A stretch of DNA of 26,243 nt from a virus, in IMG/VR virus record IMGVR_UViG_3300042507_002115, positions 1-26,243 of that record. One strand, 5' to 3'. Made by a program: the position numbers and the translations under genes. The first letter of the stretch is position 1. The number at the start of each line of letters is the position of its first letter. The notes beneath the pieces are model-generated. The model worked only from the letters and a program-made list of their open reading frames with translations. It was not told the DNA's origin and did not search any database. Below are positions 44-887 of this stretch, piece by piece.

Positions 44-887
44 TTATTCCTCCTGCGGCGAGGCTGCTTCAGCACTCAAGATTGCTCGTCCAATAAGCTC
101 TGGGATTTGGGGGACAACGGCGTTTCCGAGAGATTTAAGTCTGTCCACCCGAGCGGGAACCCCATTAGCCACTCGACCCACGTTGGGTTCAACGCGCCAT
201 TGTTTCGCTCCACTTTCTGAATATGCTCGCTCAAGTTCACCCCCCTCGATGATGCGGCTTGCCGTTTGTCTACTGTCTCTAGTTTCATTGATGATTTGTA
301 ATCCCGCGATGTCGGTGTGGGCCAAAGGTATTGATGCTTCACTTGATTGCTCAAGCTGAGTTGCCCCCCCTTCTCCGTATCGCTTGCTTTTGGGGTAAGC
401 CACAATCCAAACCCTGTCTCGTCGGTGAGGCGCACCAACGCTGGAAGCTGGTATGCAATGCCACTCTGCATCGTACCCGATCTGGGCCAGGTCTCCGAGA
501 ACACGGTCAAGCCCTCTCCCAAGAAGTGCTGAGACGTTTTCCACGATGACGTAGCGTGGTCGTAGTTCGCCAACAAGACGGGCGTACTCGCTCCATAATC
601 CGCTGCGTGTGCCTTCGCCCATTCCTGCCCCCCCCCCCTGCGAGGGAGATGTCTTGGCAAGGAAAACCTCCGCAAATAACGTCAACTGTGAGGCCGTCTG
701 CGGTGAGTTGGGCGGCGGTAAGGGTTTTGATATCGGTGTACTGTCTGACATGGGGCCAATGTTTCATTAAAACCTTTTGACAAAACTTATCTATTTCGCA
801 GAACGCTACAGTCTCAAAACCGCCAGTGCGTTCCAGGCCAAGGCTGAAACCGCCAATGCCGCTGAATAGGTCAAGGAGTTTTAGCAC
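44..887 (-). CDS. C5-cytosine DNA methyltransferase, frameshifted at a poly-G tract
   Basis: Two overlapping minus-strand frames together encode one complete Dcm/HhaI-type methyltransferase of about 280 aa, which transfers a methyl group from S-adenosylmethionine to cytosine C5. The first frame (887 down to about 628) has motif I (DLFSGIGG, residues 6-13) and the catalytic motif IV GGFPCQDIS with its Pro-Cys. The second frame (about 638 down to 44) has the ENV motif (VIVENVSALL), motif VIII (APHRRDRVWIV), a variable target-recognition stretch, and the C-terminal motif LGNAVVPQ. The frames meet at an 11-base G run (628-638 on the plus strand); ten Gs would restore one frame. As written, translation from 887 runs out of frame after the catalytic motif and stops at 507. 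The start is GTG at 887, adjoining the upstream gene's TAG, with a GGGAGGAG ribosome site. In phages such enzymes usually protect DNA from host restriction. The break could be a sequencing error, a mutation or a phase-variable switch. Confidence 0.9.
628..638. repeat. 11-base C/G homopolymer inside the methyltransferase gene
   Basis: Eleven consecutive C residues on the plus strand (G on the coding strand) sit exactly where the methyltransferase reading frame breaks, just after catalytic motif IV. Tracts of this length are prone to polymerase slippage in vivo and to length errors in sequencing. Confidence 0.95.

Follow-up and report, generated by a model that had tools for sequence, protein, structure and literature searches.

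A G tract splits a phage C5 methyltransferase gene

The window, i.e. the whole stretch of DNA analysed here, is a viral record of 26,243 bases and represents a fragment of a tailed phage. Its + strand carries terminase, portal, major head protein and tail genes, all of them uninterrupted, so the window bears no sign of general decay. A megablast search with window positions 1-25000 against phages gave no match. At the left end, on the - strand, lies a C5 methyltransferase gene that is split by a homopolymer of 11 G (628-638, - strand; C11 on the + strand), as seen directly in the sequence. This tract is the longest homopolymer of the window, the next one being a C9 at 2326-2334, and only about 0.03 runs of G or C of at least 11 are expected in the window under an independent-base model.

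Hereafter, D denotes the C5 methyltransferase frame and W the protein encoded in the +1 frame of the same DNA; the tract lies inside both. In D, it is positioned just after the PCQ motif. The 5' part of D (639-887, - strand) runs from motif I (DLFSGIGG) to motif IV (GGFPCQDIS) and matches PF00145 (4e-22, profile positions 2-85). The 3' part (44-627, - strand) matches the same profile (5e-18, positions 75-178) as well as phrog_363 (2e-42), and contains motif VI (VIVENV), motif VIII (RRDRVWIV), a variable region and a motif X-like sequence (LKSLGNAVVPQ). The upstream ORF (507-887, - strand) and the downstream ORF (44-751, - strand) are in frames one base apart that join at the tract. With 11 G, the D product leaves its frame and ends at a stop codon at 507-509, giving 126 aa.

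A preliminary description of this DNA had claimed that the G11 breaks the methyltransferase by one base, and both the direct sequence and the PF00145 matches bear this out. Its claim that every C5 motif is present held only in part: D contains what we take to be motifs I, IV (PCQ), VI (ENV), VIII and X (the last aligning weakly), but the D frame has no recognisable motif IX. A motif IX-like sequence, LNPTWVEWLMGFPLGWT, sits in the overlapping +1 frame instead. The outcome named there as a refutation, decay elsewhere in the gene, was looked for and not seen, in that the 3' part of D in the window has no additional stop or frameshift. What the preliminary description had missed is the second protein, W, broken by the same tract.

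Two further features of the window lie apart from this locus. Between divergent gene blocks, at 2058-2364, the sequence CGTTGAGGC and its inverse, GCCTCAACG, are repeated in both direct and inverted orientation; this region possibly serves in replication or regulation. At 2323-2348 there is a terminator-like C9/G6 inverted repeat (CTTCCCCCC...GGGGGGAAG), and a similar element with a run of 9 is found in the contig L191.

W is a conserved protein encoded in the +1 frame

The 5' part of W (639-751, - strand) has its own ATG at 749-751 and begins MSDST..., the same N-terminus as in W of L001, the closest relative; upstream of the tract, W shares its frame with ORF 44-751. The 3' part (76-627, - strand) reads SSWKTSQ...FSETWPRSG...LWLTP...WPTP...LNPTWVEWLMGFPLGWT and belongs to a third-frame ORF of 199 aa (76-675, - strand), with a match to phrog_1008 (2e-28 for the part and for the ORF). 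In the window, D and W are thus both broken at one place, the G11. We inferred the start region of W from stop depletion and start codons in relatives; in the window itself, no obvious ribosome-binding site is found at the W start.

As relatives, we used the 80 best viral contigs from a search with the 3' part of D. By strict motif, 73/80 rows contain a W-like ORF in the +1 frame (5 of the 80 rows are duplicates). For an open-frame test we considered the stretch from PCQ to GNxVxP in the 78/80 rows whose D ORF passes three motif checks, corresponding to 74 distinct genes. The +1 frame was open in 73 of these, as compared to 2.3 expected from within-gene synonymous codon shuffling, and the +2 frame in none (0/74; 9.39 stops per gene vs 8.90 expected). 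The tract-bearing genes gave the same picture: among 58 distinct in-frame tract loci with a findable GN motif, the +1 frame was open in 58/58 (1.9 expected) and the +2 frame in 0/58. The D frame overlapping W was likewise preserved: of 79 W loci scanned, 3 lacked the motif, and the 76 that were scored had no stop in the 150 D-frame codons checked. Depletion of stops in the +1 frame starts 10-20 codons before GGFPCQ and stops about 180 codons after it, and an ATG accompanied by a purine-rich stretch is present 11-80 bases upstream of PCQ in many relatives.

At four-fold degenerate D codons, where a third-base identity of 0.26 is expected, 500 random gene pairs gave 0.311 ahead of W and 0.417 across the 25 codons that immediately precede PCQ. 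Within the overlap the values were 0.542 and 0.438, the W motif LNPTWVEWLMGFP reached 0.886, and beyond W identity was 0.358. Amino-acid identity in the +1 frame amounted to 0.449 vs 0.254 expected and was higher in 250/250 pairs. The +2 frame was also raised (0.381 vs 0.247 expected), as conserved third bases would cause. Taken together, W is an overlapping gene under purifying selection; this is a result of sequence analysis, and translation of W is inferred.

W may be the small domain that D lacks

Each of the 69 aligned W proteins has a match to phrog_1008 but to no Pfam or NCBIfam family. A search of PDB sequences with the W profile found nothing, and an AlphaFold2 model of W built from 69 relatives was poor (pLDDT 57, pTM 0.28). 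We therefore rely on comparison of the W profile with 14 proteins (E-values computed with Z=1000). The profile matches the second, +1-overlapping genes of split actinophage methyltransferases, i.e. those of Firecracker (4e-19), Camerico (1e-17) and Goose (3e-16), and more weakly those of Heather (8e-6) and Refuge (1e-5). It also matches the middle of the single-chain C5 methyltransferases of Quico (6e-12) and PFR1 (7e-7); the match to that of Neville (0.047) was not significant. In the matched single-chain enzymes, motif X is directly preceded by LPTP repeats and a WMMG.P motif, and the matched region is the place of motif IX and the target-recognition region.

D in turn aligns to M.HhaI over residues 14-184 (motifs I-VIII) and, weakly, over 294-319 (motif X), with nothing in between; we find no recognisable motif IX or target-recognition region in the D chain. 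Its predicted structure comprises a confident catalytic core and the motif X helix, with pLDDT below 50 at residues 186-253, where motif IX belongs, and Foldseek aligns the model to M.HhaI and M.HaeIII over about 170 columns. As W resembles the target-recognition/motif IX part and D has no motif IX, the two look like subunits of one enzyme. On the other side of the ledger, a 23-residue profile of the motif IX-like stretch of W found no methyltransferase in the PDB, and the N-terminal half of W, which overlaps motifs IV-VIII of D, has no methyltransferase counterpart. We consider it likely that W is the small-domain subunit of D, a reading that rests on sequence alone; their pairing, the methylation and the need for W are inferred.

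The tract recurs in relatives

The closest relative, L001 (on the same contig as L191; about 86% DNA identity to the window), has an in-frame run of 10. Of the 74 distinct PCQ segments (L001-L159), 72 have a longest G run of 2-8; the other two, L001 and L040, have one of 10, in both cases in frame and at the same codon as the window tract. We then scanned viral contigs for a PCQ motif with GCN and a run of 9 or more G after it, which retrieved at least 120 contigs. True run lengths among them were 9 (11 contigs), 10 (51), 11 (29), 12 (8), 13 (4), 14 (7), 15 (9) and 17 (1). By phase, 80 of the 120 retrieved contigs are in frame, 21 one base short, 15 one base long and 4 unclear, and 104/120 are distinct by 240 bases of flank. 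The same scan in a genome collection gave two matches, a Gallionella MAG and Cerasicoccus arenae. Many apparent extra tracts one base from the main tract were rejected, being the same tract preceded by a GCG codon. In the Cerasicoccus arenae contig (L282) we observed three G tracts of at least 9, two of them apparently within one C5 methyltransferase gene.

In a control scan that allowed any Gly codons in the in-frame AGGGAG loop (80 rows listed), the G were uninterrupted in 46/80 loops. GGG makes up 0.228 of the Gly codons in these genes, the cube of which is 0.012, and the tract is thus maintained as a tract. A codon tally over 102 sequences was not used as a rate, as it mixes in loci fetched for having the tract. 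On a tree of 167 rows (95 with tract, 72 without), tract-bearing rows are the window/L001 pair, L040/L277, L282 and the members of a large clade of 90. The tract label must change at least 5 times on this tree, though a single origin remains compatible with the strongly supported branches. Tract-free members of the large clade are under-represented because the clade was fetched by the tract pattern. Many members of the subfamily have no tract and keep both the D and W frames intact.

Tract length differs between near-identical contigs

Length differences were found between contigs that are otherwise the same. L163 and L279 share 9,820 aligned nt that differ by one mismatch and one gap, the latter being the tract (15 vs 13); L175 and L275 align over 5,928 nt without mismatch (14 vs 15), and L185 and L260 over 7,385 nt without mismatch (17 vs 10). 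Defining near-identical pairs by at least 98.5% identity over at least 1 kb spanning the tract, 4/18 pairs differ at the C5 tract and 3/23 at a similar tract in N6-adenine methyltransferases (see below), i.e. 7/41 in all, with tract length agreeing in the other 34/41. Other homopolymers of at least 6 differed in 2/270 cases, a comparison that is not length-matched since those runs are mostly shorter. Besides, out-of-frame lengths recur in separate near-identical contigs (L199/L213, L210/L224, L256/L263, L186/L266, L179/L247 and L227/L273), which is unlike random error, unless these contigs share reads through re-assembly.

Certain caveats apply. Being metagenome assemblies, the contigs are prone to errors in long G runs, and some were maybe re-assembled from one sample. 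Each of the three identical-DNA C5 differences involves a run of at least 13; at lengths of 9-11, the C5 evidence consists of one 97% pair (L225/L257) and more distant pairs, with the N6-adenine pairs besides. Within these bounds, tract length differs among otherwise identical genomes of relatives, as opposed to the window's own population.

These data bear on the remaining claims of the preliminary description. It had proposed that a run of 10 would restore the enzyme, which is the in-frame length found in L001, and that tract length should be compared in relatives, where both in-frame and out-of-frame lengths turned up; how widespread the tract is among viral contigs had escaped it. Its suggestion of a possible phase switch is supported by the relatives, yet reversible switching remains an inference and no reads of the window's phage are available. 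Its main alternative, a base-calling error, also survives in so far as the eleventh G of the window contig could still be an assembly error.

A similar tract in N6-adenine methyltransferases

The L163 phage carries both the C5 tract and a tract in an N6-adenine (DPPY) methyltransferase gene. At L163 9073-10392, an in-frame G10 directly precedes VDMLLTDPPYNV in a protein with ParB_N and N6_N4_Mtase domains. Scanning for a G tract before DPPY yielded 71 viral contigs with runs of 9-15, of which 46 are in frame according to an automatic phase call (made from very short upstream sequence for L359 and L387). Here again, close relatives differ in length: L355 (9) and L406 (11) are 99.8% identical, L353 (10) and L379 (11) 99.0%. 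Two unrelated classes of phage methyltransferase hence bear the same kind of tract beside the catalytic motif.

A putative two-subunit switch and its alternatives

We propose that 628-638 is a contingency tract that controls a two-chain phage methyltransferase and is seen here in its off phase. The tract, its overlap with a frame under purifying selection and the length differences between near-identical contigs are shown on sequence; the switch itself we regard as likely, with translation of W, the pairing of D and W, methylation, reversible switching and its benefit all inferred. As both frames contain the tract, the gain or loss of one G through replication slippage would throw D and W out of frame together. 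With one base more, the state of the window, D would end after the PCQ region and the start of W would run into the tail of D; with one base fewer, the start of D would run into the tail of W. Neither fusion product would hold the catalytic core and the recognition part in order, and other tract lengths would restore both chains together. A phage population may then be mixed, some virions having methylated DNA and others not, which could be a hedge between two kinds of host restriction enzyme, one cutting unmethylated and the other methylated DNA.

The alternative closest at hand is that the eleventh G is a sequencing or assembly error and the real gene is in frame and normal. Homopolymers are the commonest site of indels, the nearest relative is in frame, the rest of the D and W frames is intact and reads of the window's phage are lacking. 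However, an error accounts for one base only and not for a conserved tract in more than 100 contigs, and it leaves unexplained both the uninterrupted G in 46/80 loops and the recurring out-of-frame lengths; we thus hold it to be unlikely. Similarly improbable in our view is that W, while a true overlapping protein, has an unrelated function, e.g. as an inhibitor or regulator, and is no methyltransferase subunit. The absence of Pfam, NCBIfam and PDB matches, the poor structure model and the N-terminal half without methyltransferase counterpart would fit such a protein. Against this stand the match of the W profile to the target-recognition/motif IX part of single-chain C5 enzymes and to the second genes of split ones, the lack of that very part in D, and the D frame that remains free of stops in 76/76 scored W loci.

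Two further explanations appear very unlikely to us. The tract might be a programmed slippage site for polymerase or ribosome, every genome giving in-frame and out-of-frame products without any switching of the genome. Slippage does occur at homopolymers, two overlapping frames and a third, chimeric one meet at the tract, and one base fewer joins the start of D to the tail of W. Yet lengths vary between near-identical genomes and cover all three phases, many tract-free members keep both frames intact, so W does not need slippage, and many members have a start codon and a purine-rich stretch just upstream of PCQ. Alternatively, the gene could be decaying and the tract be a neutral mutational accident. 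In favour of decay, 36/120 retrieved tract contigs, about a third, are out of frame, and the gene is lost through another indel in Llama-type phages. This reading is at odds with the in-frame excess (80/116 called), the absence of stops in the +1 frame of 58/58 tract-bearing genes, the intact D and W downstream of the tract in the window, and the presence of tracts next to the catalytic motif of an unrelated methyltransferase class.

Both frames are broken in Llama-type mycophages by an insertion of one base that is not part of a homopolymer, and loss of D and W is therefore tolerated in some phages. In Mycobacterium phage Llama (L422), the insertion lies at about 840 and splits the methyltransferase and the +1 frame relative to Nitzel, which is 98% identical. 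We rejected the Llama/Nitzel difference as an isolate example of the switch because the extra base is not in a homopolymer. Other mycophage records also match in two pieces with two genes.

Returning to the contingency tract, a bolder reading, inferred from sequence alone, is that phages run phasevarions of their own: G tracts beside the catalytic motifs of C5 and N6-adenine methyltransferases, once both in one phage, would spread the population over methylated and unmethylated states, and in the C5 case one slip would switch two overlapping subunits. We lean towards this reading, if only by a narrow margin. If true, viruses use modification of their own DNA to bet-hedge against host defences of opposing kinds, and some phage methyltransferase genes annotated as broken are switches in the off state. 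The conserved overlapping frame of about 200 codons moreover provides a strong, testable case of two enzyme subunits sharing DNA.

Relation to known systems

Phase-variable methyltransferases and two-chain C5 enzymes are each known separately; their combination in phages was not found in the literature searched. Specifically, this search, which covered few subscription papers, turned up neither G-tract switching in phage methyltransferases nor the W overlap. Poly-G phase-variable methyltransferases are known in H. pylori and others (PMC12003011; PMC12707154). The present locus resembles such bacterial systems, e.g. the Helicobacter pylori poly-G type III MTases and phasevarions, in that a homopolymer within an ORF, typically poly-G, lets one base toggle the full enzyme. 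In contrast to these, it concerns the phage's own C5 gene and not a host restriction-modification gene, and the tract adjoins the catalytic motif and sits in two overlapping frames.

As for the two-chain architecture, the large chain of M.EcoHK31I has motifs I-VIII and X, and motif IX resides in the small chain (PMC3404938). The frame of the M.EcoHK31I small chain overlaps that of the large chain. The D/W arrangement would fit such a two-polypeptide C5 enzyme by analogy, without direct sequence comparison; here, however, the genes are those of a phage, W contains the WPTP region and exceeds a bare motif IX chain in length, and a G tract lies in both frames. M.AquI and the split actinophage methyltransferases (Firecracker, Goose, Refuge, Heather and Camerico) are two-chain C5 enzymes as well, and in the actinophage ones the second gene, which overlaps in the +1 frame, is matched by the W profile. 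In these enzymes motif X belongs to the second chain, the first one ending after motif VIII, whereas D retains motif X and overlaps with W over almost its entire length. None of the five split actinophage loci showed a G tract.

Annotation of this DNA varies. In Pseudomonas phage VB_PaD_phPA-G (L424), the annotated CDS at 942-1670 is the W frame and the methyltransferase frame is unannotated. Finally, PHROG 1008, including the 'Mte8-like protein' ORF28 of Escherichia phage K1ind2, is the W family itself. Both overlapping ORFs are annotated in K1ind2, which has no tract, and the family is labelled only 'DNA methyltransferase' or 'hypothetical'; with W as the putative small-domain subunit of D, it would gain a concrete role.
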